Below the pieces are notes generated by a model. The model was not told the origin of the DNA, made no database searches, and saw only the letters and a program-made list of their open reading frames with translations. Positions 16,850 through 49,862 of a stretch of 64,000 nucleotides of DNA are shown piece by piece; position 1 is the first letter of the stretch, and every line of letters begins with the position of its first letter. The stretch comes from an uncultured Granulosicoccaceae bacterium (GTDB taxonomy: Bacteria > Pseudomonadota > Gammaproteobacteria > Granulosicoccales > Granulosicoccaceae), in NCBI GenBank assembly GCA_937930305.1, contig CALGLE010000007.1, positions 62,001 through 126,000 on the forward strand, given 5' to 3'. A program made the position numbers and the translations under genes.

Positions 16850-18385
16850 ATGCCTACCATCCGCCAAGATGACTTGATCGACAGCATCGCTGACGCGCTG
16901 CAGTTCATCTCCTACTACCATCCCAAAGACTATATAGACGCGGTCCATCAGGCCTACCTGCGGGAGGAATCCCAAGCAGCCAAGGACGCCATGGCGCAAA
17001 TATTGGTCAATTCTCGACTCTGCGCTGACGGCAAACGCCCTATATGCCAAGACACCGGCATCGTCACTGTGTTCGCCAAAATCGGCATGAATGTGCAATG
17101 GCAAGACGCCACGATGGACTTCAGCAGCATGGTGAACGAGGGCGTTCGACGTGCCTACACCCATCCTGACAACAAATTGCGCGCCTCCATTCTGCACGAT
17201 CCCGCAGGTGCTCGAATAAATTCTGGTGATAACACACCTGCTGTCATACACACCGAACTGGTGGCCGGCGACACTGTTGACATTCAGGTGGCAGCGAAAG
17301 GCGGTGGCTCGGAAAACAAATCGAAAATGGTCATGCTAAACCCCAGCGACAGCATTGTGGACTGGGTGGTTAAAACCGTCCCCACCATGGGAGCCGGCTG
17401 GTGCCCTCCTGGCATGTTAGGCATCGGCATCGGTGGTACCGCAGAGAAAGCGGCCGTCATGGCCAAAGAATCACTGATGGAACCGGTCAATATTCAAGAG
17501 TTAAAAGATCGCGGGCCGAACAACCGCGCCGAAGAACTTCGTCTTGAAATTTTTGAAGCTGTCAACGCATTAGGCATCGGCGCACAAGGTCTGGGCGGTT
17601 TAACAACCGTGGTGGATATCAAAGTCAAAGACTATCCCACCCATGCTGCGTCTCTTCCCGTTGCCATGATTCCAAACTGCGCTGCCACCCGGCACGCGCA
17701 CTTTACGTTAACCGGCGAAGGCCCCACCTTTCAAAAAGCCCCCTCGCTTGACGATTGGCCCTCCGTTACCTGGGAAGCGGGAGAATCCTCACGCCGCGTT
17801 AACTTAGATACCGTCACCCCAGAAGACGTCGCCAGTTGGAAGCCCGGTGAAACCCTACTGCTCAGTGGCGCCATGTTAACCGGCCGAGACGCTGCCCATA
17901 AACGCATCCAAGGACTTTTGGAAAGCGGTGAAGGCTTACCCGAAGGCGTTGACTTTAATAACCGATTTATTTATTACGTCGGCCCCGTTGATGCCGTGCG
18001 TGACGAAGCCGTTGGCCCGGCAGGTCCAACCACATCCACCCGCATGGATAAATTCACAGAAATGATGTTGGCTGACACCGGGTTACTTGGAATGATCGGA
18101 AAAGCCGAGCGAGGCCCTTCCGGCATTGAGGCCATAAAGAAGCACAAAGCGGTTTACTTGATGGCCGTGGGCGGTGCAGCCTATCTAGTGTCCAAAGCCA
18201 TAAAGTCCGCTCGTGTGGTAGCGTTCGAAGACTTAGGCATGGAAGCCATTCACGAATTTGTTGTGGAAGATATGCCCGTTACCGTTGCCGTTGATTCCAC
18301 CGGTGAAGCGGTACACCAAACAGGCCCTGCGTTATGGCGCGGGAAACTCCAAAGCGGTGAAGTTAAACCAGTTTATTTCTCATGA
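16850..18385 (+). CDS. Fumarate hydratase class I (iron-sulfur)
   Basis: This 4Fe-4S-dependent fumarase hydrates fumarate to malate in the TCA cycle. The 511-residue protein carries both FumA/FumB domains in one chain: an N-terminal alpha-type domain with ICQDTGIVTVF, NKSKMVMLNPS and PNCAATRHAHF, and a C-terminal beta-type domain with GPTTSTRMDKFTEMML and GPSGIEAIKKHKAVYLMAVG. The cysteines in CQDTG and PNCAA are candidate cluster ligands. A small lipoprotein gene overlaps its stop codon. Confidence 0.94.
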   Translation: MPTIRQDDLIDSIADALQFISYYHPKDYIDAVHQAYLREESQAAKDAMAQILVNSRLCADGKRPICQDTGIVTVFAKIGMNVQWQDATMDFSSMVNEGVRRAYTHPDNKLRASILHDPAGARINSGDNTPAVIHTELVAGDTVDIQVAAKGGGSENKSKMVMLNPSDSIVDWVVKTVPTMGAGWCPPGMLGIGIGGTAEKAAVMAKESLMEPVNIQELKDRGPNNRAEELRLEIFEAVNALGIGAQGLGGLTTVVDIKVKDYPTHAASLPVAMIPNCAATRHAHFTLTGEGPTFQKAPSLDDWPSVTWEAGESSRRVNLDTVTPEDVASWKPGETLLLSGAMLTGRDAAHKRIQGLLESGEGLPEGVDFNNRFIYYVGPVDAVRDEAVGPAGPTTSTRMDKFTEMMLADTGLLGMIGKAERGPSGIEAIKKHKAVYLMAVGGAAYLVSKAIKSARVVAFEDLGMEAIHEFVVEDMPVTVAVDSTGEAVHQTGPALWRGKLQSGEVKPVYFS

Positions 18386-18702
18386 TGATCAGATCCTTAC
18401 TACTTTCTATCGTGGTTTCACTAGCTGTGATTGGTTGTGCAACCGACGGCGGCGGCTCCTACAGTGGTGGTGGCTCACGCGCCGCCTCGTGTAAAGCCGG
18501 CGATCAAGCCATCGCCTCAGCCAGTCAGTGCTTACAAGATGATGCCGCGTGTTACCAATTGTCCAATGATAGCTGGTGCACCGGCGAACGCGGTTTATCC
18601 TGCCCAACCGGCTCATCCGAACTGTTAGCAGGTGCGCCCTGCCCTCGCGGCGCACGTTGTTTCAAAGCCAGTGAAAGCTTGATGTGCGCCGTAAATTATT
18701 AA
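18382..18702 (+). CDS. Small Cys-rich lipoprotein
   Basis: This 106-residue protein has a type II signal: a basic start, a hydrophobic stretch and the lipobox LAVIGC with Cys19. The mature part is Gly/Ser-rich and then contains eight further cysteines (for example ASCKAG, SQCLQDDAACYQL, WCTGERGLSCP), which suggests disulfides in the periplasm. The family is not recognised. The start overlaps the fumarase stop (ATGATGA), so either of two consecutive Met codons could be used. Confidence 0.72.
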   Translation: MMIRSLLLSIVVSLAVIGCATDGGGSYSGGGSRAASCKAGDQAIASASQCLQDDAACYQLSNDSWCTGERGLSCPTGSSELLAGAPCPRGARCFKASESLMCAVNY

Positions 18703-18790: not shown

Positions 18791-19651
18791 ATGAACACTT
18801 GGAATCTTGCAAACACGCTGAAAGTACAGGCTCAGCTCAGCATTAAAACACTGTGCACCTCTTTAGTGGTAGCCACCGCAGTGCTAGGCGCGACATTCAC
18901 CATGACTTCACTCGCCGTAGCCGCTGACTTACCCGATCTCGGCGGCAAAGAAGTGGTCGTGGTTACTGAAAATGCTTATCCGCCTCTGCAATTTGTTGAC
19001 CCCAAAACAGGGGATGCCATTGGCTGGGAATACGATGCCATGAACGAATTGGCAACACGGCTTAACTTCACCGTGGTCATTCAGAACACCAGTTGGGATG
19101 CCATGATTCCGGCAGTCAGCGAAGCCCAATTTGATATTGGCATGACGGGAATTACCATCAAAGAGGAGCGCAAAGAGAAAGTGGATTTCTCCGATGCCTA
19201 CCTACGTAGCGAAATGTTCATGCTGGTGCGTGCCGATGAAGATCGCTTTGCAGACGGTGCAAGCTTTGCTGGATTCGAAGACGGCTTAGTTGGCGCACAA
19301 GCGGGCACCACGCCTTTCTACGTCGCAGTTTATGACATGTTAGACGGTGACGAAGCGAACCCTCGTATCAAGCTATTCGAAACATTTGGTGCTTCCGTGC
19401 AAGCCTTGCGGGTGGGCGATGTAGATGTGGTGTTGACCGATGGAACCGCTGGCCAAGGCTACGTAGATGCCAACCCCGATACATTCAAGTTAGTTGGGGA
19501 CTCCATGGGCACCGAAGATTTTGGATTCATTTTCCCCAAAGGATCAGAGCTCGTCGCCCCAATCAACGCAGGCATCGCAGCCATGAAAACTGATGGCACT
19601 TTGGACGCCTTGAATAAAAAGTGGTTCTTGGACTACAAAATCGGTGACTAG
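18791..19651 (+). CDS. Amino-acid ABC transporter, periplasmic substrate-binding protein
   Basis: This class 3 solute-binding protein (GlnH/HisJ/FliY-like) has 286 residues. A signal peptide spans roughly residues 1-44 and ends in SLAVAADLP; its N-terminal part is unusually long. Domain signatures are [58 protein letters not shown] and the C-terminal [12 protein letters not shown]. The ATG follows a good AAAGGAT Shine-Dalgarno. It is followed after 11 bp by its permease; the ligand is probably a polar amino acid. Confidence 0.9.
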
Positions 19652-19662
19652 ATTAAGAACCA

Positions 19663-20481
19663 TTGACGTTGCTTAAAGTCAAAAGCATCCGAGCGGGTGA
19701 TACCCCACCCGCTCAAGACTTCCCCTGGTGGTTGGTAGCCACCCTACTCATCGGCGTCTATCTGGGCTGGCGTATCTACACCGATGAGTTGTATACCGAA
19801 ATATTTCGAGTCATCGCCCGAGGCGTTACTGTCACAGCTTTTGTCACACTCGTGGCATTCGCTATCGCCTCTTGCATCGGCTTGTTGTTGTCGGTCGCTG
19901 TTCTATCAAAATCCAAGGTGCTCAGACAATGCGCCAGGTTCTACATCGAAGTGGTGCGCGGCATACCCATGTTGGTGTTGCTGTTTTACATCGCCTTCGT
20001 CGGTGCGCCCGCCTTTGTCAACCTCTACAACGCCATCGTAGAGCCCATCGGATTAGAACCGCTAAGAACACGCGATATTTCCTTTTTATGGCGAGCGATC
20101 TTTGCATTAACCATTGGCTACTCAGCCTTCATCGCCGAGGTTTTCCGCGCCGGCATACAGTCCATTGATACCGGCCAAATTGAAGCCTCTAAGGCGCTCG
20201 GGTTGTCTAGCTGGCACCGCTTTCGATTTATCATTTTCCCACAAGCGATTCGCCGAATCCTGCCCCCACTGGGCAACGACTTCATCGCTATGATTAAAGA
20301 CAGTTCTTTGGTTTCAGTTTTAGGCGTTGCCGATATCACACAGTTGGCAAAAGTGTATGCCGCCGGAAGCTTTCGATTTTTTGAAACCTACAACATCGTA
20401 GCCTATGTGTATTTACTGCTGACTATTTTGTTGTCTTTGGGGTTGCGGCGGTTTGAAAGTTACCTCGCCCGTAAACACTGA
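19663..20481 (+). CDS. Amino-acid ABC transporter permease (HisM/GlnP type)
   Basis: This inner-membrane permease has 272 residues and several hydrophobic segments. The EAA loop is present as EASKALGLSSWHRFRFIIFPQA around residues 172-192, and the family segment EVVRGIPMLVLLFYIAF is clear. It starts at TTG 19663. No ATP-binding subunit lies next to it: the following gene is on the other strand and unrelated. The transporter must therefore borrow an ATPase encoded elsewhere. Confidence 0.88.
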   Translation: MTLLKVKSIRAGDTPPAQDFPWWLVATLLIGVYLGWRIYTDELYTEIFRVIARGVTVTAFVTLVAFAIASCIGLLLSVAVLSKSKVLRQCARFYIEVVRGIPMLVLLFYIAFVGAPAFVNLYNAIVEPIGLEPLRTRDISFLWRAIFALTIGYSAFIAEVFRAGIQSIDTGQIEASKALGLSSWHRFRFIIFPQAIRRILPPLGNDFIAMIKDSSLVSVLGVADITQLAKVYAAGSFRFFETYNIVAYVYLLLTILLSLGLRRFESYLARKH

Positions 20482-20506
20482 CCCCAGCACTCAGCCAGAC
20501 AAACGG

Positions 20507-20998
20507 TTATCGAATAAAGCCAACCGAAACCAACACTGATAATCGAGCGTCTCGATCACCAAACTCAGAATCATCTGACGACGAATGACCACTCAACTGG
20601 GTCAAATCCAATCCTACCGACCATCCGCCGCGTCGCGCATCTTCGAAATAGTAATTCACGTTAACGCCGTTTCCACGCCAGAAGTACGAATAGAAGGTTT
20701 GCACACCCACACTGAGTTTTTTTGTGGGTACGAGGTCTAGCCCAGCGGTAATTCCGCCAAAACCCAAAGCACCGCGCAATCGAACACGCTTCCATTGCAG
20801 GCCGGCTTGTGTGCCCAAAAAGCCGTATTGCATGCCAAGACCTACCCCGGCAAACGCGCGAATAGGATTTGGGTTTGTGGCAACCTCTTCCCGTGTTTCG
20901 CCAAAAGTAGTCCCGGGAAGCTGAGTATCCTGCGCCGAGGCGACGGAAGCGCTCAGAATACCAATCACAATGAGTAGTACGGATAGGCGGTATGGCAT
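20507..20998 (-). CDS. Small exported beta-barrel-like protein
   Basis: This 163-residue protein has a clear signal peptide (ending SASVASAQ at about residue 23). The rest is built of short alternating hydrophobic and aromatic strands such as GVGLGMQYGFLGTQAGLQW and VGVQTFYSYFW, and it ends in IR after VSVGF. This fits a small outer-membrane barrel. No family is recognised. It converges with the ABC permease gene with a gap of 25 bp. Confidence 0.65.
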   Translation of the reverse strand: MPYRLSVLLIVIGILSASVASAQDTQLPGTTFGETREEVATNPNPIRAFAGVGLGMQYGFLGTQAGLQWKRVRLRGALGFGGITAGLDLVPTKKLSVGVQTFYSYFWRGNGVNVNYYFEDARRGGWSVGLDLTQLSGHSSSDDSEFGDRDARLSVLVSVGFIR

Positions 20999-21182: not shown

Positions 21183-21863
21183 TTAAGAGAGTTGAGCACG
21201 CAACTCATTAATCACCGAATCATACCGATTAGGATCAGCCTCAGAACCTGCATTGAAAATGGCTGAACCTGCCACGAAGGTATCTGCTCCCGCATCTTGA
21301 ATTTGGCGAATGTTGCCCACTTTAACCCCGCCGTCGACCTCTAATCGTATGGCTTTCCCTGTCGCATCAATGCGCTTACGCACAGATTCAATCTTGGGCA
21401 ATGTGGACGGAATAAAGGACTGCCCCCCAAACCCTGGATTCACAGACATAAGCAGCACTATATCTAGAGATTCCAGCACATGATCCAAATAATGCAGAGG
21501 GGTGGCTGGGTTAAGTACCAGCCCACACTGTAAACCGGCATCACGGATCAACTGCAACGAGCGATCAATGTGTTGTGACGCCTCAGGGTGAAACGTGATT
21601 GAAGTCGCACCAGCGGAAATAAACCCTTCAATAACTGAATCAACCGGACTCACCATTAAATGCACATCAATAGGGGCGACAACCCCGTGTTTTCTTAATG
21701 CATCACAAACCATCGGCCCAATTGTGAGGTTCGGCACATAGTGATTATCCATCACATCAAAATGAATCCAATCCGCCCCACTTTTTAGAACAGCGTCTAC
21801 CTCATCGCCCAATTTAGCGAAGTTTGCGGACAGTATTGAGGGGGCAATAATGGCAGGTGACAT
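21183..21863 (-). CDS. rpe: Ribulose-phosphate 3-epimerase
   Basis: It interconverts ribulose-5-phosphate and xylulose-5-phosphate in the pentose phosphate pathway. The 226 residues include the metal and catalytic segments [48 protein letters not shown] and RLEVDGGV. It stands alone here, without the gph-trpE linkage common in gammaproteobacteria. The stop codon is followed by ACTGACC, a motif also seen at the ends of kpsS and kpsC. Confidence 0.95.
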
Positions 21864-22028: not shown

Positions 22029-23264
22029 ATGTCGACTGCTCAGTCGTTTAAATCCGCTGCAGAAAACGTCCAACCCCACAGCCCTATAGACGCCGTGGAT
22101 TTGCGGCAGGCACAATCAGGCTTAACCGCGCCTGAATGTGAATGCTTAGAGGCGTTTTTCGACAGCCTAGTAAAGCAAGATGTGTTGAATGCCAGAATCT
22201 CTGACGGCAACGACGCAATGCGCTGCCAACTACAAAAGCTTAATGGTGTGCAAGAGTTTAGGGATCAAGATTCGTTACTCATCACCGCCCTAACCGCTCT
22301 GCGTAATTTAGCCTCAGAGAGGCTCGATAGTTCCACGAATTTCGGCGGTCTGACCGTTCAAATCAACACAGAAAAATACAACATAGACGTCAATTGCGTT
22401 TATGTGGAATCGGCTCACGGTGACCAATGGATAATACGAGCTCGCGAAGTTGAGGCAGTACCCACTGTATTGGACACACTAGGCTTAGGAGTTGATGAAC
22501 TACGGCACATTCGGAAAGCGCTTAATCAGCCTCGCGGATTGATCAGCATCGGAACCCCTCACCGCAAACATTTGGAAGACTGGCAACGTGCTGTCAGTCG
22601 TGAATTATGCGCTCCCGATCGAAGCACTTTATCACTCGCCCCCAGGGTGCTCGAGAATATGCCCGGTGTCTCGCAAACCGTATTACCCCCCGGTGAGCGT
22701 TGGGACCAGCAACTTTGGCAATTGGCAGGACATACGGAAGCCGATGTCATTGTCCTTTGCGATGATGGGACACACGGCTTCGCACCGGATCAGCTTGGTG
22801 TGTTGGCAGATAGCCGCTTGGTCGTGCAAATTCTGCAGACGCCTGACATCAACTCTCTTGCTAGACGCACTCCGGCAGGGTCGAGCGTGCACAGAGTTAT
22901 CATGCACCACGCAATACGAGGTTTGTGCAAAAGCTGCAGTGAACCTCACACTAACCCCTCCCGCCTAGAGTACGGATTTCTAGACCGAGCCCTACCCACA
23001 CTTTCTGATGGTGTTAGCGCTTGGTTGTCCGCTAGTCAGTCCACACAGTTTAGGAAACCAAATGGCTGTGACAGTTGCTCAGCCGAAGGCTATTCTGGTG
23101 AACTCTGTGTTGTTGACTCAGTCGGTGAACCCACAACGCTAAAGAACGTTACCGAGCTTTTGGACGAAAGCGTATTGGTAGCAACCCGTTCCTCAAACTT
23201 AATGGATATGGCGGGGCGTGGGGATGTTTGCTTGGATGAGGTAAAACGGCTTATTTCCGGCTAA
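22029..23264 (+). CDS. GspE/PilB-like pseudo-ATPase (orphan, Walker A lost)
   Basis: This 411-residue protein follows the plan of type II secretion/type IV pilus assembly ATPases, but its nucleotide site is broken. An N2-like part lies at about 105-152. LGLGVDELRHIRKALNQPRG matches the segment before the P-loop. Where GPTGSGKST is expected there is GTPHRKHL (175-182), without the Lys-Ser/Thr. The Walker B region reads ADVIVLCDD instead of DVIMVGEIRD. The zinc site survives: C300-x2-C303 and C347-x2-C350 in GCDSCSAEGYSGEL. No gsp or pil gene is nearby. The gene is full-length and open, so it is probably a non-catalytic regulatory or scaffold protein rather than a decayed gene. Confidence 0.7.
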   Translation: MSTAQSFKSAAENVQPHSPIDAVDLRQAQSGLTAPECECLEAFFDSLVKQDVLNARISDGNDAMRCQLQKLNGVQEFRDQDSLLITALTALRNLASERLDSSTNFGGLTVQINTEKYNIDVNCVYVESAHGDQWIIRAREVEAVPTVLDTLGLGVDELRHIRKALNQPRGLISIGTPHRKHLEDWQRAVSRELCAPDRSTLSLAPRVLENMPGVSQTVLPPGERWDQQLWQLAGHTEADVIVLCDDGTHGFAPDQLGVLADSRLVVQILQTPDINSLARRTPAGSSVHRVIMHHAIRGLCKSCSEPHTNPSRLEYGFLDRALPTLSDGVSAWLSASQSTQFRKPNGCDSCSAEGYSGELCVVDSVGEPTTLKNVTELLDESVLVATRSSNLMDMAGRGDVCLDEVKRLISG

Positions 23265-25119: not shown

Positions 25120-26067
25120 TCACGCGGCCCGCGCCAACACCTTATTAACAATCTCAGCATCATGATTGATATCGAATTTGCGTCCAAATAACTCATTCGA
25201 GGCATCAATATCCTCCCAATCTGACATTTCAAAGACCTTCACCCTCGGTACCGGACCCGGACGTAATATCAGCCGACCATAATCGTTGCTAGTTTTTTCT
25301 CGAAATGCCGAATTTTTAATGTAGGTTTGAAAATAACTTTCGTCGGGAATGAATGTGGTGCGCAGCACATCAAACAGTTCGTAAGCGAACGGATCGTTCC
25401 TCATATGTTCCAGCATGGCTCGGTGTAGATTGAACCAATTTGCGCCGACAGCAAAATCGTATTTTGAGAAGAATTCTTGTCGGCGTCGCAGCAGGAGTGG
25501 GTCACAAGTTCCAACATAAACCTCACCTTTCTCGCCGACTTCTGTGACATCAACCAACCAGCGCACGGCGGTTGCATCCTTGGGATGAATGGTCCCAGGG
25601 TTGCCAAATATTTTAGTGTGACCTCGATCACCCCATTGCACGATTTTCTGCGTTTTATTGAAGACTTCGTGATCTTCAATTTTCTCTGGAGGCAGCTTAC
25701 AGGCGCGAATGTAACTAATCTGATCCTCTAAGCCTTTCGCTAATCGCTCTTTAATTGCATCAGGGGATTGCAGTGGTAAGTCTTGTCCACTCAAGTTAAC
25801 AAAATAGTCCCACCGTTTATCCGCGTCGAGCAGAAAAAAGGCTGCATTGATGGATTTTCGCAAAGTCCCCGCTCCACCCCAGCCAATATTTTTATCTCTT
25901 AGAATATGAACATTATCGTGAGCCCCAAACCGTTCGATTGCAGTTGTATTGGGCTTATTGCCGTCGTCTATATCAATTAGGAATACATCCTCGGGCGAAT
26001 ACAGAGCTTCCATGAGTCTGGCCACTTGAGGGAAATTGTTATGGCAAAGAATATGGTAGGCAATCAC
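25120..26067 (-). CDS. GT14 family glycosyltransferase (Core-2/I-branching or xylosyltransferase-like)
   Basis: This 315-residue protein belongs to the Branch (Core-2/I-Branching) family, which in animals holds beta-1,6-GlcNAc transferases and peptide O-xylosyltransferases. Matching segments are the N-terminal AYHILCHNN, WGGAG (63-67), FVNLSGQDLPL (89-99), a Cys-containing GTCDPLLLRR and PDESYFQT (241-248). Bacterial members occur in polysaccharide clusters. It starts at GTG 26067, between kpsC and kpsS on the same strand. A UDP-xylose synthase nearby makes xylose transfer one plausible activity, but donor specificity cannot be read from sequence. Confidence 0.85.
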   Translation of the reverse strand: MIAYHILCHNNFPQVARLMEALYSPEDVFLIDIDDGNKPNTTAIERFGAHDNVHILRDKNIGWGGAGTLRKSINAAFFLLDADKRWDYFVNLSGQDLPLQSPDAIKERLAKGLEDQISYIRACKLPPEKIEDHEVFNKTQKIVQWGDRGHTKIFGNPGTIHPKDATAVRWLVDVTEVGEKGEVYVGTCDPLLLRRRQEFFSKYDFAVGANWFNLHRAMLEHMRNDPFAYELFDVLRTTFIPDESYFQTYIKNSAFREKTSNDYGRLILRPGPVPRVKVFEMSDWEDIDASNELFGRKFDINHDAEIVNKVLARAA

Positions 26068-26171: not shown

Positions 26172-28280
26172 TTATGAGGCTTTGTAAGTCAGCGCCTTGG
26201 AAATATTGTTAGCTTTTCGCAAAAGGTTCAGGCCAAACCTGCCCGCACGCGTTGGGATTATGTGTCGATTTGGCTTTGAGTTCGGTCGGGAGAACAGGTC
26301 AATTAAATCTTCCGGGCGAATGAATTCGCCACTGGCAAAATCTAGATACTTCGGATAGGCCACTAAACAGCAATAAACTAATTCTTCTAAGGTTCTCACT
26401 CGAGAGCGGCGTTCGATGGTGTGCCGGTCTTGGGTTAATCCCCATCCGGCGTAGAACGGAAGTCCGTAGGTGACAACACGCTTTCTTCGCAACAGGGCTT
26501 CAAAGCCCGACTGGGAGGTGATGGTATGAATCTCATCGCAGTGTTCAAAGCATTCCACGATATTGATATCGGTTGCCACTTCATCAACAATGGTTAGAGC
26601 CACATCCTCAGGAATGGCTCCATCGCGGTTTCCACTGACGACATCTGGGTGAGGTTTAAATACGATGTGAGCACTGGGATTAGCGGCACGAACGGCTTCA
26701 CACAAGGACAAGTTGCTGCGGATATCCACAGCTCCCCGCCTTATCGATTCATCGTCAGATACTTGGCCAACAACTAATAAAGTGGTTTCTTCAGATTTTT
26801 CAGATAAGGAAGTATTCGACTGCCCAACATTATATTTACTCATACCCGTTGCAAGCATCGTCTTAATCAGTTGAGCCGCTCGCTTGGTTTGCTCTAAGGT
26901 GCAATCGTGTGTTTGTAGCAACACTTCCAAGTCACTGGGTGCTGATGGGTCGAAATATATACCTTTGCTATCCACCACAATGGATGCTGGCGCTACAAAG
27001 TCTGAACCCAATCCTTTTGAACGCAAAAATCCATCTTCGATTCGGTGAATCGATTTCTTTTGATTGGTTTCAAGGCTTTGGCTTGTATTCGCTTGCAGGT
27101 CACGGAAACTCCATGTCAAGCGGGTTTCATGATCGTTAATGCTGCTGGAGCTTGAGAAGCGTACAGAGCCCTTGGGTGAACGCAGAAACTGCTTTAAATA
27201 CCGCCTCTTCCACAAGGTAATACTCTCACCAACAAAATGGTGTGCGTTTCTTTCAAATTCGTGTTTTTGTAAACACACATGCTGCAAACATTCGCGCAAT
27301 GTGCATTCTGTACCTGTCACCGGATGGCAATAGCGCGCAATTTTCATATGAGCGGCGAAGAACAATTCGTCCACGGTTCGCTTCTGTATTCTGCGTGGTA
27401 GCTCTTGGTAATCCGTTGTTAAGCCCCAGCCTGCATAAAACGGCAAACCAAATACATGGACTTCGGCGCCACATAGCAGGGCTTCATAACCAATTTGGGA
27501 GGTGCCCACATACACTTTACTGGCCTTTTTAAGCCAATCCATTGGGTTATCACCTATCGCACTGACTTCCAAACCCCATTGTTGAGCAAGCTCTGTCAAA
27601 TATCCAGATTTACGACCGGATACTACATCGGGGTGTGTGCGAACAACCAAGCGCGCATCCGGGTTGTCATCGACGGCAGCGATTAACATATTTTTAAAAC
27701 CTTCAGCAGTCATGCCTCCGTTCGTTAGAGATGCATCGCCTACGGTTTGATCAACAATCAATATCAGCGGTTTGTTGTCTTTCAGGATCTCAGATGGGTC
27801 TACACTTTTGCAGAAGTTGTATTTGGTAATGCTATGACATACCAAAAGTTCACGACACTGTTTGGCTTCCTGTTGTTGTTCGGGTCCAAATAGTCGAGCC
27901 AAGTCTGTATCACTAAGATTCAGTAAATTCTCCAACTCAGAAGGAGAATGGCAATCGTAATAAACACCTGCATTATCAACCAACAAGGAATAGACACGCC
28001 GAGAATGCGCGTCGGCGGAGGCAGTTCTAATCCATCCGTCTTCGATATACACCACTGGAATGTTGTGCTCGTTGGCATACATCAGAGCTTTTTGGGAAGT
28101 CTCTTTTCGCCCCCACACGACGACCATAGAAACGTTTAGATTTTCTTGACGAGCAACAGAAGGCGCTACGACAGAATCTACGCCGAGAAAACTGGATAAA
28201 TTGACGATTCCCCGGATGCCCGCAGAGCAAGCCACTGCGTGAACGCGTTCTATCGCTGTGCACTGGGAATGGGCGGCCAA
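26172..28280 (-). CDS. kpsC: Capsular polysaccharide biosynthesis protein KpsC (dual Kdo transferase)
   Basis: KpsC carries two Kdo transferase modules that extend the poly-Kdo linker on lyso-phosphatidylglycerol. The duplication is plain: EDGWIRT (80-86) and EDGFLRS (about 398), THPDVVSGRKSG and KPHPDVVSGNRDG, and GLPFYAGWGLT in both halves. The 702-residue length compares with 675 in E. coli. The extreme 5' start is TTG at 28280; a GTG at 28235 gives an N-terminus that lines up better with E. coli KpsC (ACSAGIRGIVNLSSFLG). It is the first gene of kpsC-GT14-kpsS and is divergent from the GT29-like gene. Confidence 0.93.
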   Translation of the reverse strand: MAAHSQCTAIERVHAVACSAGIRGIVNLSSFLGVDSVVAPSVARQENLNVSMVVVWGRKETSQKALMYANEHNIPVVYIEDGWIRTASADAHSRRVYSLLVDNAGVYYDCHSPSELENLLNLSDTDLARLFGPEQQQEAKQCRELLVCHSITKYNFCKSVDPSEILKDNKPLILIVDQTVGDASLTNGGMTAEGFKNMLIAAVDDNPDARLVVRTHPDVVSGRKSGYLTELAQQWGLEVSAIGDNPMDWLKKASKVYVGTSQIGYEALLCGAEVHVFGLPFYAGWGLTTDYQELPRRIQKRTVDELFFAAHMKIARYCHPVTGTECTLRECLQHVCLQKHEFERNAHHFVGESITLWKRRYLKQFLRSPKGSVRFSSSSSINDHETRLTWSFRDLQANTSQSLETNQKKSIHRIEDGFLRSKGLGSDFVAPASIVVDSKGIYFDPSAPSDLEVLLQTHDCTLEQTKRAAQLIKTMLATGMSKYNVGQSNTSLSEKSEETTLLVVGQVSDDESIRRGAVDIRSNLSLCEAVRAANPSAHIVFKPHPDVVSGNRDGAIPEDVALTIVDEVATDINIVECFEHCDEIHTITSQSGFEALLRRKRVVTYGLPFYAGWGLTQDRHTIERRSRVRTLEELVYCCLVAYPKYLDFASGEFIRPEDLIDLFSRPNSKPNRHIIPTRAGRFGLNLLRKANNISKALTYKAS

Positions 28281-28292
28281 GTAGGAAGTCTC

Positions 28293-29453
28293 ATGGTAAT
28301 TGGATCACATCATTCAAATAGCAGTATCTGCGCCATGGGGCGGTGTCAATTTTCTCGTTATAGCTCGTACAAAACTTGCTCGTACACCCTATCATTCTCC
28401 TTGTTGCCACATGAACTGAAGCTCTTGACGTCAACTCTCAAAAAAGCCTTTGGACAAGGTGACTGGCATCCATCCTTGTGTGATGAGTTGTTGGCCGCTG
28501 CGTGGCAACAACCTAATGCGAAAAATCTAATGCTGGCGTTGGACGCTGTGCACTCCATTAAGGGTGTGGATGCCGCTCTGATCGATCGTGTGGATGCCCT
28601 AGTGGCGGGTCGATTGATCCCTCACTGGCCGCTGCTCTATCGATTATGTTCTTTTGACATTGCGCTCAATCGCACCGCACACGTAGAGGCCAGATTAGGC
28701 CAGCTGCCCTCTAGCGCGGGCCAATTTTTTCAGCACAGAGCGATCACTCAATTTCCTCGAGTTCTGCACTACCTCGCAGGCAAAAACGTCTTGCCAAAAA
28801 AGCTGCATGCGCAGGCTCAAATTGCTGAAAAACTGCTGAAAAACACCCGTTTCATGCAAACAACTTTGAATGAATTGATTGCTAAAACAAAGTCACCCAC
28901 TGTTGCAGTTGTTGGCAATGGACCCTCCATGCATGGCAGTAAAGCGGGTCAGGAAATCGATGCTAAAGATTTGGTTATTCGGTTTAATAACACAGGAATC
29001 AACGCAACTTACGACAATGATCTAGGCAAAAAAACACATCTGTGGGTCATGTCCCCAAATGTACCTGTGTCTGATAACGCGCCTGCAAGCAGCATTTGCG
29101 CGATTACAGGCCCCGACCCTTGGACCCGCCCCTCACGTTACTGGAAGCAAGTAGCACGCTACCGTGAAACCTCAACAACGTTTGAGATTACCCGCTGGCA
29201 TGCGTTGGTGAGCGCCCTATCAGCCCCACCGAGTGCCGGGATATTAATGTTGGATTCACTTCGGGAAGCGGGTATAAAGCCGAGATTTATGAACGTCAAA
29301 GGATTCGATCGATTAACGAACCTTACGTCAGATGAGACTTCAGCAAACCACACCAACGACGAAGCCAATCATTATCGCGATACACAGAAAACCTCCTCGC
29401 GACACAATTGGGCGGCCGAGGCCAAGCTATTCCAGCGCTGGATGAAGGAGTAG
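28293..29453 (+). CDS. GT29 (sialyltransferase-like) family glycosyltransferase
   Basis: Numbering here follows the longest open frame, which begins at GTG 28239. The C-terminal half shows sialylmotif-like segments: VAVVGNGPSMHGSK with EIDAKDLVIRFNNTG (222-253, L-like), PSAGILMLDSLREAG (331-345, S-like) and HNWAAE (389-394, the HX4E VS-like motif). The N-terminal half is helical and not recognised. The start is uncertain: ATG 28293 has AGGAAG just upstream but crowds kpsC, and ATG 28335 is possible. GT29 enzymes use CMP-sialic acid in animals. No sialic acid synthesis genes are visible, so CMP-Kdo or another donor is possible. It lies divergent from kpsC. Confidence 0.75.
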   Translation: MVIGSHHSNSSICAMGRCQFSRYSSYKTCSYTLSFSLLPHELKLLTSTLKKAFGQGDWHPSLCDELLAAAWQQPNAKNLMLALDAVHSIKGVDAALIDRVDALVAGRLIPHWPLLYRLCSFDIALNRTAHVEARLGQLPSSAGQFFQHRAITQFPRVLHYLAGKNVLPKKLHAQAQIAEKLLKNTRFMQTTLNELIAKTKSPTVAVVGNGPSMHGSKAGQEIDAKDLVIRFNNTGINATYDNDLGKKTHLWVMSPNVPVSDNAPASSICAITGPDPWTRPSRYWKQVARYRETSTTFEITRWHALVSALSAPPSAGILMLDSLREAGIKPRFMNVKGFDRLTNLTSDETSANHTNDEANHYRDTQKTSSRHNWAAEAKLFQRWMKE

Positions 29454-30417: not shown

Positions 30418-31422
30418 TTAGCCGCGAACCGCCATTTGACTGACCGTCGCAGATTTATCCGACAAAAGCTGATCAAAATACTCAATCGTTTTCTTAAGGC
30501 CTTCATCCAAAGACACTTTAGGCTCCCATCCCAGTTGCTCTTTCGCCAAGGTGATGTCAGGGCGACGTTGGGTCGGATCATCACTTGGAAGATCTTTAAA
30601 GACCAATTCAGAAGACGAATTCGTCATTTCAATCACTTTTTCTGCCAACTGACGAATAGTGAATTCACCGGGATTACCGATGTTAATCGGGCCAGTGACC
30701 GAATCGTCTGAATTCATGAGTCTTACGAACGACTCAATGAGGTCTAAGCAGTAACAAAATGATCGAGTTTGCTCGCCTTCGCCATAGATTGTGATCGGCG
30801 TGCCGGTGAGCGCTTGTACGATAAAGTTGGACACCACACGGCCATCGTTTGGATGCATGCGAGGCCCGTAAGTATTGAAGATTCGCCCCACTTTGATTCG
30901 CAGATTGTGTTGACGGTGGTAGTCAAAGAATAGTGTTTCGGCGCAGCGCTTGCCTTCGTCGTAGCACGAACGAAAGCCAATTGGATTGACGTGGCCCCAG
31001 TAGCTTTCCTGTTGCGGATGTACTTTAGGGTCACCATACACTTCACTGGTCGATGCTTGGAATATCTTCGCACCCGTTCGTTTTGCCAAGCCGAGCATGT
31101 TGATCGCACCGTGAACACTGGTCTTGGTGGTCTGCACCGGATCGTGTTGATAATGAATCGGTGACGCAGGACAGGCCAAGTTATATATTTCATCAACTTC
31201 GAGATATACCGGGAAGGTGACGTCATGACGCATCAATTCAAACGAAGAATTGTCCATCAAGTGGTGGATGTTCTGCTTAGTTCCGGTGAAATAGTTATCC
31301 ATACAGATAACTTCATTTCCCTCGTTGAGTAAACGCTCGCATAGGTGAGAGCCCAGAAAACCGGCCCCTCCAGTTACGAGGATGCGCTTACGGATTCCCA
31401 TCGATGAAGCTATATCAGTCAT
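30418..31422 (-). CDS. UDP-glucuronate decarboxylase (UDP-xylose synthase)
   Basis: This extended-SDR enzyme of 334 residues converts UDP-glucuronate to UDP-xylose. It has the NAD loop [12 protein letters not shown] at 16-27, the UXS-typical [22 protein letters not shown], and the catalytic pair in [10 protein letters not shown] near residue 154, followed by [22 protein letters not shown]. These features separate UXS from the 4-epimerases. It heads a two-gene unit with rmlA. The product would supply xylose for the GT14 and GT61 enzymes of this locus, which is inference. Confidence 0.92.
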
Positions 31423-39057: not shown

Positions 39058-39915
39058 CTAAACCGCGTAGCCTAACTGGGAAAGCTCGTTACCAATTTGA
39101 TTAGCAAATATGTCTTGTACTTCATCACTGAGCTCATCTCGCCAGCGCTCTACTGATGTAGAAGCATCCGAACTAGTCATATGAATTTTACGAATAGACT
39201 TATCTTTGGATACCCCTTTCGTGTTCAGAGATACGCCTAACCATTCTGACAAACGCTTCACCGTCGCATCTTCGTTTCGAATTAAGTCTTCATAACGAAT
39301 CGCAATGCGCCGGTCGTTTTCATCAAATTCGATCATATGCTGCATGAATTGCTGGCGGTTTTTGCACATTTTCTGGGCGTATGACACGTCGTTATCATCT
39401 TCCAACCAGCCAAAGGAATGAAAACCACGCTTCGCGTTAAAACTCTTTATTGACACCATTTCATCGCGCGGATCTCGAAGTAGAAAAATGTTTTTCGCTT
39501 TTAAAATCTGATTGGCCGTGTTGGCCACATAGGGCGGGACTTTCTCAGCGTAAAATCCTAAGCAATCCGGTGCTAGTCCACTTTTGTCACGCATTTCTGC
39601 AGAGAAATTATTCCATAGTGAAACAAAAGCACGCTCAGACAACCTCTCACGATCAATCAGTTCAACTCGACCATAGGGAAGGCAACCCACCATCCGCTGT
39701 TTGCCACGGAACAGTACATCGTTGTCCCAAGGCTCATCCACCTTAGCTGGTAAACTTAAGACACGAGACATATTGTAAACGTAAGCTAAATACCGATGTT
39801 CAAACGGGTACTGTCTCTCAAAACAGATTTGACCGCTCGAGCCGAGAATTTGCATCAACAGAGTAGACCCTGTTCTGCCAAATGTTCGAATCATAACCGG
39901 TACCAATGTGTCCAC
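39058..39915 (-). CDS. PAPS-dependent sulfotransferase family protein
   Basis: This 285-residue protein matches the P-loop-like sulfotransferase fold: the 5'-phosphosulfate loop RTFGRTGSTLL at 10-20 and the 3'-phosphate segment LLRDPRDEMVS at 145-155, followed by IAIRYEDLI and a C-terminal SVERWRDELS. These enzymes transfer sulfate from PAPS to hydroxyls of sugars or lipids. Its place inside the capsule operon suggests the exported polysaccharide is sulfated. PAPS synthesis genes are not in the window. Confidence 0.82.
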   Translation of the reverse strand: MDTLVPVMIRTFGRTGSTLLMQILGSSGQICFERQYPFEHRYLAYVYNMSRVLSLPAKVDEPWDNDVLFRGKQRMVGCLPYGRVELIDRERLSERAFVSLWNNFSAEMRDKSGLAPDCLGFYAEKVPPYVANTANQILKAKNIFLLRDPRDEMVSIKSFNAKRGFHSFGWLEDDNDVSYAQKMCKNRQQFMQHMIEFDENDRRIAIRYEDLIRNEDATVKRLSEWLGVSLNTKGVSKDKSIRKIHMTSSDASTSVERWRDELSDEVQDIFANQIGNELSQLGYAV

Positions 39916-40061: not shown

Positions 40062-40745
40062 TCAAGTTAGCATCCATAGCAAAGCCATGGCCATGAGAAC
40101 ACCTAATATCAAATCCCTGATAAGAGCAATTCGGTTACTACGACCCTCATCTTGGGTATTTTCTTCAATAACAGGTAGAACAGATTCAGGCTTTTCTTGT
40201 GCCGTATTGAGTATGTCGCCTAACTGATCCATGGGTATCTCGGCAGCTATTGCATAGGCTAAAAAAGAGTTCACCACTTTCTCACCACCATCACCAGGGT
40301 TCTGACGAATCATGTTAGTCAACGCATTCAGAGCAGGAAGGCTTAGACCTAATTCGCGCGCGATTTTCCTCGCGTGTGCCATGTCGTGTTCTAAATTAGT
40401 CAGCTCCTGCAATTGCATCTGAAATTTCGTTTTTACTGATTCTTCAACGTAGCCTCCACCTATCTCGGATAAGCAGGAAAGCATTAGCTGTTCTTGCTCC
40501 TTGGTCCGAGCGTTAAACCCCATTTCAATTAAAACGGTTAGGGTTTGAGTAGGCACTCCCATTGCAATGAGATTTTCCCTTAAATTGTGCATCTCATTGT
40601 GCAAAGCACAAAATTCTTTAATACTGCTGCGCACAATATTTTCGTCTGATGAATTCAATCCATCAGATTCTGACGCACCATCTGATTCAAGTAAATCATG
40701 GTTGTCTTGTGAACTTATTATTCGTAGTGCATTGCTAGAAGACAC
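40062..40745 (-). CDS. Capsule-operon protein with C-terminal membrane anchor and internal repeat
   Basis: This 227-residue protein matches no family I know. Residues 1-40 are acidic, Ser-rich and probably disordered. Two similar helical units follow: one from LHNEMHNLRENLIAMGV (48-64) and one from LEHDMAHARKIARELGL (118-134), each followed by a T-L-x-x-L- or A-L-N-A-L-type helix. A single hydrophobic segment at about 208-226 ends the chain, so the bulk should face the cytoplasm. It lies 15 bp after kpsD, within the export gene block, and may assemble or tether the biosynthetic enzymes at the membrane. That role is speculation. Confidence 0.65.
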   Translation of the reverse strand: MSSSNALRIISSQDNHDLLESDGASESDGLNSSDENIVRSSIKEFCALHNEMHNLRENLIAMGVPTQTLTVLIEMGFNARTKEQEQLMLSCLSEIGGGYVEESVKTKFQMQLQELTNLEHDMAHARKIARELGLSLPALNALTNMIRQNPGDGGEKVVNSFLAYAIAAEIPMDQLGDILNTAQEKPESVLPVIEENTQDEGRSNRIALIRDLILGVLMAMALLWMLT

Positions 40746-46981: not shown

Positions 46982-48775
46982 ATGAATTTCTCCCAACGCT
47001 TAGCGTCTGATTGTGAAAAAAGCACCAAAGGTTCCCAAAATTTTGGTTTGGAACGGGTTTTTTTTACCCCATTGCTTTTATCAGTAATTATGTTGCCCGC
47101 ACTATTTACAGTTGCGCCTCTGGCAACGGCGCAAAGCAGCTCTGGGCAATGTTCCGTAACTGAAAACAGCTTGGCTGCTGCTCGACAAGCTTTTGCGAAC
47201 CAATGTGCGGTTAATTTGGTCGATTGTGATCCGCTGGGGAATCAATGGCAGTGCGCTAGCTTTCAACTTGGCAACGCCAGTCCAGCCAACACCAACCTAA
47301 CAATCAGTTCGGGTGCACCTGCCCAGCCAGTAGCACCTAATACACATCAGGCTTCGCCAGCACCCACTGCGCTCAATCACTCGCCGACTTGCGCGGTAAG
47401 TGCGAGTAGCTTGAGTGCATCTCGAGAACTTTATTCAGTTAGCTGTGCGCTACCTAGGGTCGATTGTGATCTTCTCGATGGGCGATGGACCTGTGCCGCT
47501 TTTGCAATGGGTACAGCGCCCGCTTCACAGCAGATAAACCCAAGTAGCAGTGGGAGCAATACTGGAATAACCTATGGAGGCAATTTCGGGCCACCGCAGC
47601 GAAGTTGGATGGATAGCTACTCAGCTAACGGTCGCTGCTTTGTCGCCAGTAATTTTGATCATGGTATAGCGGATGTTCTCGTTCAGACACCCGCCGGCAT
47701 GTTAACCGTCAAAGCAGTTGCTGAAGCACTCGGTACTGGCCCCGGTGTGGGCAACAATCCAATTTATAACGATGTGCAATGTGGTCATGGGCCAGCGAAT
47801 AATGCTGGAGATGAAGACGTGAATCAATGTCCAGGCCGGGTTGATTTAGGCGCAGCGGGCTGCTCAATGCGAGGACCTTTATGGGATCTCAGCATTTTCG
47901 AGGCACCCGATTCAGATAACAATTCTCCTGAATCCAACACTATGCAGCCAATTATTGAGCCTGTGGTTGCTCCTAGCGTGACGAGTCCGAACTTCGTCTC
48001 AAACGGAATATCCGCATTACCTGATCGCAGCAGATTTGCACATGGGGATCTTTTATCAATTCACTACGACAATGCCGGAGATCGGGACGATGGAATTGCC
48101 GCAGCAGCCACTATTATGGTGTTGGACTATTTTGGACTTAAGAACAGCATTCATGTGGTGAATGGAACATACGATGAACGCACACCACACTTTTATCAAT
48201 CAGCTTCTGAACCACTTATGCGAGAAGTGTTTGGCGCGGAAAACCAAGCATCGGGCTGGTGGAATGCCCATACAAGGTACGAAGAGAGCGTGAGAAAAAC
48301 TCTCGAAATTTGGCGTGCGACTCTGCAATCCGGCAACAAGGTTTGGGTTGCGGAAGGGGGAACTTCAGATTTCACCTCCGAAGTCCTGCGCCGAATGCGC
48401 AATCAGCAAATAAACAATTTGAAGAGTATTTTTGTAATTCAGCACAGTCAGTACAACAATAACTTCACTGTTCCTAAAAACCTGGAAGATACGAAGAATA
48501 TCGCCTCACACATGTCTATTCCTGACGGCAATTACGTTGGTAACGGCACAACAGGCTTAAATCAGCAAAATGACGCGGTTGCGCGAAGTTTCCTCAATAG
48601 TCCAACTTATAGTGATGTATGGAGAAGTGCATACAATTATTTGCCTGCAATCAATTGCGGCAACCCGTCGCAACAGTGCAAATTCGATGGGTCAGACGCT
48701 GTTGCGGTTTTGTATATTGTAGGGGACGAGATGCTGCGTGATTGGACAGAATTCAGTTATCGCTACTACCGGTAA
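46982..48775 (+). CDS. Secreted protein with twin Cys-rich repeats and nucleoside-hydrolase-like C-terminal domain
   Basis: This 597-residue protein has an internal-start signal peptide (hydrophobic 27-49, ending ATAQ). Two repeats follow with identical cysteine spacing: C57, C75, C82, C91 and C137, C155, C162, C171 (gaps 18, 7, 9 in both), joined by Pro/Ala/Ser-rich linkers. A third Cys-containing region spans about 207-307. The C-terminal part (about 350-597) has IHYDNAGDRDDGIAAAA and KVWVAEGGTSDFTSEVL, which recall the Asp-rich metal site of inosine/uridine nucleoside hydrolase (DUF1593-like) proteins. That resemblance is by eye only. It has its own promoter and its 3' end overlaps the GT61 gene by 23 bp. 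Confidence 0.7.
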   Translation: MNFSQRLASDCEKSTKGSQNFGLERVFFTPLLLSVIMLPALFTVAPLATAQSSSGQCSVTENSLAAARQAFANQCAVNLVDCDPLGNQWQCASFQLGNASPANTNLTISSGAPAQPVAPNTHQASPAPTALNHSPTCAVSASSLSASRELYSVSCALPRVDCDLLDGRWTCAAFAMGTAPASQQINPSSSGSNTGITYGGNFGPPQRSWMDSYSANGRCFVASNFDHGIADVLVQTPAGMLTVKAVAEALGTGPGVGNNPIYNDVQCGHGPANNAGDEDVNQCPGRVDLGAAGCSMRGPLWDLSIFEAPDSDNNSPESNTMQPIIEPVVAPSVTSPNFVSNGISALPDRSRFAHGDLLSIHYDNAGDRDDGIAAAATIMVLDYFGLKNSIHVVNGTYDERTPHFYQSASEPLMREVFGAENQASGWWNAHTRYEESVRKTLEIWRATLQSGNKVWVAEGGTSDFTSEVLRRMRNQQINNLKSIFVIQHSQYNNNFTVPKNLEDTKNIASHMSIPDGNYVGNGTTGLNQQNDAVARSFLNSPTYSDVWRSAYNYLPAINCGNPSQQCKFDGSDAVAVLYIVGDEMLRDWTEFSYRYYR

Positions 48776-49862
48776 AATACTTATTTGCTGTTGCAACAAC
48801 ACGTTCAATATCCACCGTAAAGTTTTTATCGCGAACTTCGCCATCATAACTCGTTGGCAACAGCTGACCCCTATCGTCAATACCTGCAGCAAATGCTTCG
48901 TAGTTAAGATCGTTTAAGGTTGCCACTATTCGAAAGTGCCCCGTAATGTAATGGCCACCAAATTCCAACAACTTGGTATCGGGTTTGCAAAAAGCAATAT
49001 TTGCTAGCCCTGCACCGTGTGAACCTAAAACGTAATCGGCCATAGAAAATGCTTCCGCCTGTTCTTGCAAGCTCATTCGATGGGGTTCAATGATTTCGTA
49101 ACCCTCAGAACTGAGTCGATCCATAAGTTCCGCTTCGTTATAAATTGAACGTCTCGCGTTGCCTCGGGCGACGTATATTCGCTTTTCAGTTGATTCGCGA
49201 GACGACAAATTTTCAGCCAACTCATCTTTAAGATAAGTATTTTTTAGATAATCCATAGCCCACGGGGCTGGCCAAAACCCTCCATCCATTCGAAACATTG
49301 GGATAAGTAAATCCTCAACGACAAAGTGATTTTTGCGGCCATTGTCTAAGAAGAGTACACGTGAATCCTCAATACCCAAAGCATGCAGGTGCTCACGTTG
49401 AAAATTATTCTCCATCCGGTGAATATAAAAGTTATCAATTGAGTCTAATGTATGGCCGCCAAGTTCCAAAACACCAGGAAACGCCAGCGTATCAATAAGC
49501 CAATGGTAGTAATTATATGGATCAAGGTGCGGCAACAAAACAGTGCTGCCTGACAAGGTTTCAATAGGTATTTCTGAAACGCAGTTGAAATCAAAAGAAT
49601 CATCAACAAGGCTTACCGAGTCGATAATCTGATTTTCCTCGGTATACACACAAATAGCTTGATAGTCAGTCCATACGCGGACATTTTTTAATCGATGTAA
49701 CGATACTGCCGAGTAGTGAACATCCTGCGCTTTATGCCAATCAATCAATCGTTCATTTTCGGGTATGATCTTTTTATACTGACGGCGCCCTTCTGCATAA
49801 AATTCAATGCGTTCGTATTCGGGGCCGGTACATTCATGCAAAGCTGCCGCATTACTACCCAT
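48753..49862 (-). CDS. GT61 family (DUF563) glycosyltransferase
   Basis: This 369-residue protein has the DUF563/GT61 core: NYYHWLID at 117-124, KRIYVARGNARRSIYNE at about 227-243 and SHGAGLANIAFCKPDTKLLEF from 281. The eukaryotic family includes beta-1,2-xylosyltransferase and EOGT; bacterial members occur in capsule and LPS clusters. With UDP-xylose synthase in the same locus, xylose transfer is a reasonable hypothesis. It follows a GT4 gene after 2 bp on the minus strand. Confidence 0.85.
   Translation of the reverse strand: MGSNAAALHECTGPEYERIEFYAEGRRQYKKIIPENERLIDWHKAQDVHYSAVSLHRLKNVRVWTDYQAICVYTEENQIIDSVSLVDDSFDFNCVSEIPIETLSGSTVLLPHLDPYNYYHWLIDTLAFPGVLELGGHTLDSIDNFYIHRMENNFQREHLHALGIEDSRVLFLDNGRKNHFVVEDLLIPMFRMDGGFWPAPWAMDYLKNTYLKDELAENLSSRESTEKRIYVARGNARRSIYNEAELMDRLSSEGYEIIEPHRMSLQEQAEAFSMADYVLGSHGAGLANIAFCKPDTKLLEFGGHYITGHFRIVATLNDLNYEAFAAGIDDRGQLLPTSYDGEVRDKNFTVDIERVVATANKYFTGSSDN

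Follow-up and report, generated by a model that had tools for sequence, protein, structure and literature searches.

Members of the GspE/PilB clade are known as motors. In Geobacter PilB, a type IVa pilus extension ATPase, E357 binds magnesium and H420 contacts the gamma-phosphate, and R271 and R286 are supplied to the site by the neighbouring packing unit, according to the available part of PMC5424180. The tetracysteine zinc site has been published as CxxC-X(21-40)-CxxC, and PilU is without the zinc domain (available part of PMC5061722). PilU and TfpB, both ATPases, illustrate the functional idea of a second paralogue standing beside a main motor (PMC11656802). Type IV pilus genes have been described in eight genomes of kelp Granulosicoccus; the available part of that account does not mention a pseudo-ATPase of the kind described below (PMC9238374), and the available part of PMC9956873 contains nothing on a dead PilB. 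No PilB/GspE pseudo-ATPase in print was found among the matches listed from the open-licence PMC literature.

The window analysed here is a stretch of 64,000 nucleotides on contig C7 (CALGLE010000007.1) of an uncultured Granulosicoccaceae bacterium. The features needed for what follows are listed in order of position.

16850..18385, plus strand: fumarase-like gene, the constant upstream neighbour in relatives, which we take to be FumA class I
18382..18702, plus strand: small gene with no Pfam match, found after the fumarase in most g1 loci, presumably lipoprotein-like
21183..21863, minus strand: divergent neighbour, found here in part of the genus, which we take to be rpe
22029..23264, plus strand: pseudo-ATPase gene, 411 aa, GspE/PilB clade (ORF, HMM and model)
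22086..22466, plus strand: N2-domain part, about residues 20-146, with the boundary inferred from the model
22551..22577, plus strand: ruined Walker A, GTPHRKHL at residues 175-182 (176-183 by alignment)
22743..22769, plus strand: ruined Walker B and catalytic Glu stretch, DVIVLCDDG at residues 239-247
22926..22937, plus strand: first CxxC, C300/C303
23067..23078, plus strand: second CxxC, C347/C350
23462..24793, minus strand: kpsS-like gene, Capsule_synth, convergent with the pseudo-ATPase gene
26172..28280, minus strand: kpsC-like gene, Capsule_synth

The pseudo-ATPase gene is a complete open reading frame, with an ATG start and zero internal stops. Pfam T2SSE matched its product at an E-value of 1.5e-7, above the curated cut-off, and a T2SSE match at E <= 0.01 was obtained for all 29 members of the group that were scanned (top 4.9e-30). 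The best single NCBIfam match was to GspE (E 1.8e-8, 33.5 bits), well short of the 630-bit equivalog cut-off. The EpsE chain 1p9r matched at E 4.2e-5, and the closest solved structures by sequence were EpsE/GspE and Thermus PilF. These matches relate the protein to the T2SS/T4P ATPases beyond what chance would produce. T2SSE was its sole Pfam match at E <= 10, with no N1-type domain (MshEN or GSPE_N1E), and N1 was likewise absent among the families matched by the 29 scanned members.

An AF2 model of the window protein, built with 20 genus members, had a mean pLDDT of 78.9 and a pTM of 0.77, and begins at the N2 part. Foldseek returned PilB 5tsh as the best match (E 4.0e-22), and in VIA residues 33-411 of the model aligned with chain 5tsh_F over 352 residues (Z 27.4, rmsd 3.5). 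When a g4 member only 16% identical to the window protein was modelled from an 18-row alignment headed by that member, the pLDDT was 84.0 and PilB was again the top match (E 4.3e-26). The protein therefore has what places a sequence in the GspE/PilB clade, a significant T2SSE match together with an N2D-CTD fold, the latter taken from two models. The sequence-only reading had recognized a full-length frame on the GspE/PilB plan and had proposed structure prediction as a check; both the family plan and the frame were borne out, and the check returned the PilB-type fold.

Set beside PilB, its best structural match, the window protein shares the N2 domain, the RecA-like CTD and the tetracysteine site; it differs in having no N1, in the ruin of its Walker A and B motifs, Asp box, His box and Arg fingers, and in having no T2SSE or T2SSF gene beside its own. 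The type II secretion ATPase GspE/EpsE has the same core plan, from which the pseudo-ATPase departs by the loss of its catalytic residues; the genome's own GspE (L002) also has a GSPE_N1E domain, which the pseudo-ATPase lacks. Among the top-scoring active relatives of the pseudo-ATPase profile are long MshEN extension ATPases such as L050, which, unlike the pseudo-ATPase, has MshEN and an intact GPTGSGKT, and which falls below both the PilB and the GspE cut-offs. PilU and TfpB differ from the pseudo-ATPase in being ATPases, and the genome's TfpB is a separate protein.

Residues were counted in an alignment of 34 pseudo-ATPase members with 16 active relatives. The active set comprised 15 extracted sequences and L050 (569 aa), which was moved out of the pseudo-ATPase set on account of its intact P-loop; L006, which had no profile match, and L007-L009 lie outside the 16. 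A 96-aa fragment from G026 (L097) was left out of the counts, and L114, cut by a contig end, was kept. The EpsE labels in our residue table are those that we take to apply. Geobacter PilB residue numbers, as in PMC5424180, were assigned from equal spacing along the genome's own PilB, by subtracting 3 from the L003 number, rather than from a superposition.

The P-loop GPTGSGKT of the active relatives aligned to residues 176-183 of the window protein (TPHRKHLE). Neither the Walker A Lys (K331) nor the Thr (T332) was kept in any of the 34 members, as against 16/16 each in the active relatives, and the Lys position was occupied by Leu in 18 members and Arg in 11. The sequence-only reading had placed the motif at GTPHRKHL, one residue off the alignment, and its conclusion that no Lys-Ser/Thr is present is unchanged. 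The survey of homologues that it proposed showed loss of the P-loop to be common to 34/34, and a search for G....GK[ST] elsewhere in the chain gave 0/34. Sequencing error in the P-loop was considered and set aside, as 34 genomes agree.

The losses extend to the rest of the site. The catalytic Glu after Walker B (E395), invariant in the active relatives (16/16), was kept in only two members, which form one sister pair; the window protein has Asp245 there, in agreement with the earlier remark that this Glu is missing. The Asp-box E357 was kept in 3/34, the Arg fingers R271 and R286 in 1/34 and 7/34, and the His-box residues H413 and H420 in 0/34 each, all of them being 16/16 in the active relatives. 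Among R271, R286, E357, H413 and H420, only the R286 equivalent is retained in the window protein. The losses taken together have thus destroyed the protein's own site as well as the contribution it would make to the site of an adjoining subunit. The protein does not qualify as an active GspE/PilB ATPase by its Walker A, catalytic Glu, Arg fingers, Asp box, His box or N1 region, and to judge from these residues normal ATP binding or hydrolysis would be absent.

The zinc site presents the opposite picture. Each of the four cysteines was kept in all 34 members, at exactly the positions given earlier for the window protein (C300/C303 and C347/C350). The spacer between the two pairs is 43 residues in the window protein, 42-43 in 20 of the 23 g1 members and 30-40 in the remaining 14 members, compared with 29-34 in those active proteins in which two pairs were found by pattern. 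By its cysteine pattern the site is thus a putative tetracysteine zinc site, although the 42-43 spacer falls just outside the published range of 21-40. Two Arg of the N2 domain were also kept, in 31/34 and 29/34 members; the window protein has Gln67 and Gln69 at these positions, and Arg is also missing in its two nearest relatives. Given the kept Arg pair, a residual function in assembly or towards a ligand is possible.

Profile searches and locus inspection placed the pseudo-ATPase in 34 of 48 Granulosicoccaceae genomes, one per genome (g1, 23; g4, 8; g5, 1; g6, 2), with a further contig-end fragment in G026 (g1). The members occur in Granulosicoccus and in other Granulosicoccaceae, and one is from a cultured strain, Granulosicoccaceae sp. 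I2M11 (JAUOPI010000009, locus L145). In 29 of the 34 loci a fumarase gene precedes the pseudo-ATPase gene in the same orientation, in some cases separated from it by rpe or by inserted genes; the sequence of the other five stops short of the fumarase position. Of the 13 genomes without the gene, six (G027, G035, G062, G065, G066 and G033) represent clean losses, in which fumA adjoins kpsS directly, with or without the presumed lipoprotein gene. The other seven are put down to contig ends, missing contigs or rearrangement: the locus runs into a contig end in G009 and G032 and is rearranged in G017, and no fumA match at E <= 1e-100 was obtained in G011, G028, G060 and G067. No intact homologue was found around fumA and kpsS in these 13 genomes; G034, inspected alongside them, turned out to hold a member.

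Two local insertions were seen. In two g4 loci (L096:8639-11303 and L115:4765-7474), three genes lie between the fumarase and the pseudo-ATPase, possibly marking an insertion place; one of the three presumably has a MotB-like start. In the window itself, a transporter-like pair and a small gene (18791-20998) stand between the fumarase-lipoprotein pair and rpe and are absent there in G002 and G010; we take the pair to be amino-acid ABC-transporter-like.

In a wider search, 92 of 369 genomes of the class had a match at E <= 1e-58, with at most four candidates scored per genome; four of these are family genomes with the short form, and the other 88 had frames of at least 515 aa. In a tree of the 34 members and 16 active proteins, the 16 formed one clade with a support of 100 on a long branch. 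Because of the long branches, no parent subgroup could be named.

The members have been inherited with their genomes. Tree distances of the pseudo-ATPase and of FumA were correlated (n=29, Mantel r 0.897, reached by none of 2000 permutations), and the pseudo-ATPase changes 5-7 times faster (slope 5.3, mean ratio 7.3). In all seven member pairs compared, pN was 0.09-0.32 and pS 0.58-0.80; dS was saturated in four of the pairs, and the three in which it was computable gave dN/dS values of 0.07, 0.08 and 0.08. The pseudo-ATPase descends with the genome and is under purifying selection. The rapid evolution and the six clean losses might suggest a pseudogene in decay whose stop codons are yet to come. 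This is hardly credible, however, given frames that are open in four genera, cysteines kept in every member and an omega of 0.07-0.08 wherever it was measurable, and decay was set aside on these grounds. The earlier proposal of selection for a non-catalytic form agrees with this dN/dS and with the loss of the Walker A Lys-Thr from 34/34. Because the loss of the active site is conserved, the cysteines are kept, descent is vertical and selection is purifying, we conclude that the 411-aa protein is a real, old pseudo-ATPase of the GspE/PilB clade.

The true motors of the genome are encoded elsewhere. Its PilB (C5), GspE (C37) and TfpB (C2) each score above the NCBIfam cut-off and lie on contigs other than C7, and T2SSF genes adjoin PilB and GspE. 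T2SSF (GspF/PilC) matches were found on C5, C37, C39 and C2 and none on C7, where the sole T2SSE match is the window protein. The earlier statement that its surroundings lack gsp and pil genes therefore holds for T2SSE and T2SSF on C7, and, as judged from the ORF lists, for other gsp/pil families. PilB and GspE of the genome each have an MshEN or GSPE_N1E domain. The second, TfpB-type pilus extension ATPase (L004, C2:167520-168671) scored 882 bits against a cut-off of 850. Judged by eye, with P-loops checked in part, at least one match in a frame of at least 500 aa was present in each of the 48 genomes, and loss of the pseudo-ATPase is therefore not accompanied by loss of such proteins.

The sequence-only reading had suggested that the protein perhaps regulates a true PilB/GspE hexamer or is its dominant partner, and a non-catalytic subunit might indeed mix into PilB, TfpB or GspE hexamers, all three intact in this genome, and tune or block them. 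The N2D-CTD core, which is the part that packs into hexamers, is present in the fold predicted for the monomer, and PilB-TfpB hetero-oligomers have been raised as an open question (PMC11656802). EpsE without its zinc cysteines is dominant-negative, perhaps through mixed oligomers (available part of PMC5061722), so a dead core can poison a motor. Nevertheless, such mixing is possible rather than favoured, because N1 is missing and neither half of the shared active site survives, and as originally worded the claim finds no support in the counts for R271, R286, H413 and H420. The rates of change fit poorly as well. In four g1 genomes (G010, G012, G022 and G023), GspE was 74-77% identical to that of the window genome and the pseudo-ATPase 20-23%, and in two g4 genomes (G057 and G061) the values were 70-72% and 16%; in the nearest relatives, G002 and G025, they were 91% and 85% against 58% and 59%. 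These identities are from BLAST for GspE and from the alignment for the pseudo-ATPase, with a G031 stretch (L197) left out that is 50% identical to GspE and is probably no orthologue. Identities of 70-77% against 16-23% in six genomes are hard to fit with a shared, conserved interface, GspE alone being the motor compared; a poisoning role is possible. The neighbouring capsule genes suggest another role, in which the pseudo-ATPase would belong to the capsule locus and control or aid Kps capsule export. Its position beside that locus, remarked on earlier, is real in that kpsS lies at a distance of 47-2388 bp in 30 of the 34 members, and among 64 kpsS loci found by two short KpsS patterns the profile matched in the flanks of 20 of the 23 inside the family. 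It matched in none of the 41 outside it, within flanks of up to 5 kb, several of them cut by contig ends. The two genes also dissociate, presence being discordant in 12 of 48 genomes: G008, G020, G026 and G030 carry the pseudo-ATPase with no kpsS match at E <= 1e-15, the first two and G030 keeping it near the fumarase-lipoprotein side, and eight of 39 kpsS-bearing family genomes (one kpsS being a fragment) are without it, contrary to what would be expected of a Kps component. The presence of one gene is weakly associated with that of the other (31/4 against 8/5, Fisher p 0.048, with shared ancestry and genome incompleteness ignored). As the genes are convergent, they do not form one operon. 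The link with the capsule is weak and the proposed export role doubtful; the neighbour that stays constant is the fumarase gene, so the capsule adjacency may reflect descent alone.

A further alternative is that the RecA domain, predicted to persist as a fold, keeps an unusual site for a nucleotide or another small ligand instead of serving purely as a scaffold. Of the members, 14/34 retain the first P-loop Gly and 15/34 an Asp-box Glu, but no constant charged residue has replaced the P-loop Lys, the Leu and Arg counted there being divided between members, and we regard such a site as improbable. We think it probable, instead, that this old, vertically inherited and catalytically dead member of the clade is a binding protein, a nucleotide-free mimic of the PilB core. 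The N2 domain, RecA-like CTD and zinc-type tetracysteine site would be kept as a folded scaffold from which N1, the P-loop, the catalytic Glu, the Asp-box Glu, the His box and most Arg fingers have been lost. Such a protein would neither bind nor hydrolyse ATP in the normal way, nor could it complete a neighbour's active site; it would act by protein-protein binding, permanently in the nucleotide-free state, probably on a partner that is also changing fast, its likeliest role being to regulate surface structures, either pili or polysaccharide, or to serve as an adaptor for them. Against the binding-protein reading stand the two N2-domain Arg kept in most members, the two sister members that have the catalytic Glu, the R286 equivalent of the window protein, and the six genomes that live after clean loss of the gene.

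In Myxococcus xanthus, exopolysaccharide production goes up when the active site of PilB is mutated, a Walker A mutation being among those that do so, and the substrate-free state of PilB has been suggested to be the signalling one (PMC11656802). By analogy, the pseudo-ATPase could be a pilus motor turned signalling protein, a nucleotide-free PilB core that was freed by the loss of N1 and reports to surface-polysaccharide production beside capsule genes. The M. xanthus mutants make an always-empty PilB core next to polysaccharide genes an attractive idea; we consider this specific version unlikely. A motor body kept over several genera with nearly all of its active site shed is a natural test of what such proteins do free of ATP, the candidates being docking, contacts of the zinc domain and signalling to surface polysaccharide. 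It is also a warning for annotation, since Pfam files such proteins with ATPases even though the residues for ATP turnover are missing.

The capsule region itself holds an unusual set of genes for a bacterial capsule. It includes a GT29 (sialyltransferase) match at 28239-29453 on the plus strand and, on the minus strand, a Branch (core-2/I-branching) glycosyltransferase (25120-26067), a sulfotransferase (39058-39915) and a GT61 protein (48753-49862), together with a gene at 30418-31422 that we take to be UDP-glucuronate-decarboxylase-like. At 40062-40745 the minus strand encodes a protein of 227 aa that matches no Pfam family and carries a hydrophobic stretch at its C terminus. Relatives of it (E <= 1e-5) were found at 15 loci, counting the window, and stand beside kpsC where this could be seen. 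Two of them (L106 and L107) are without the pseudo-ATPase, and this protein seems to go with kps and not with the pseudo-ATPase.
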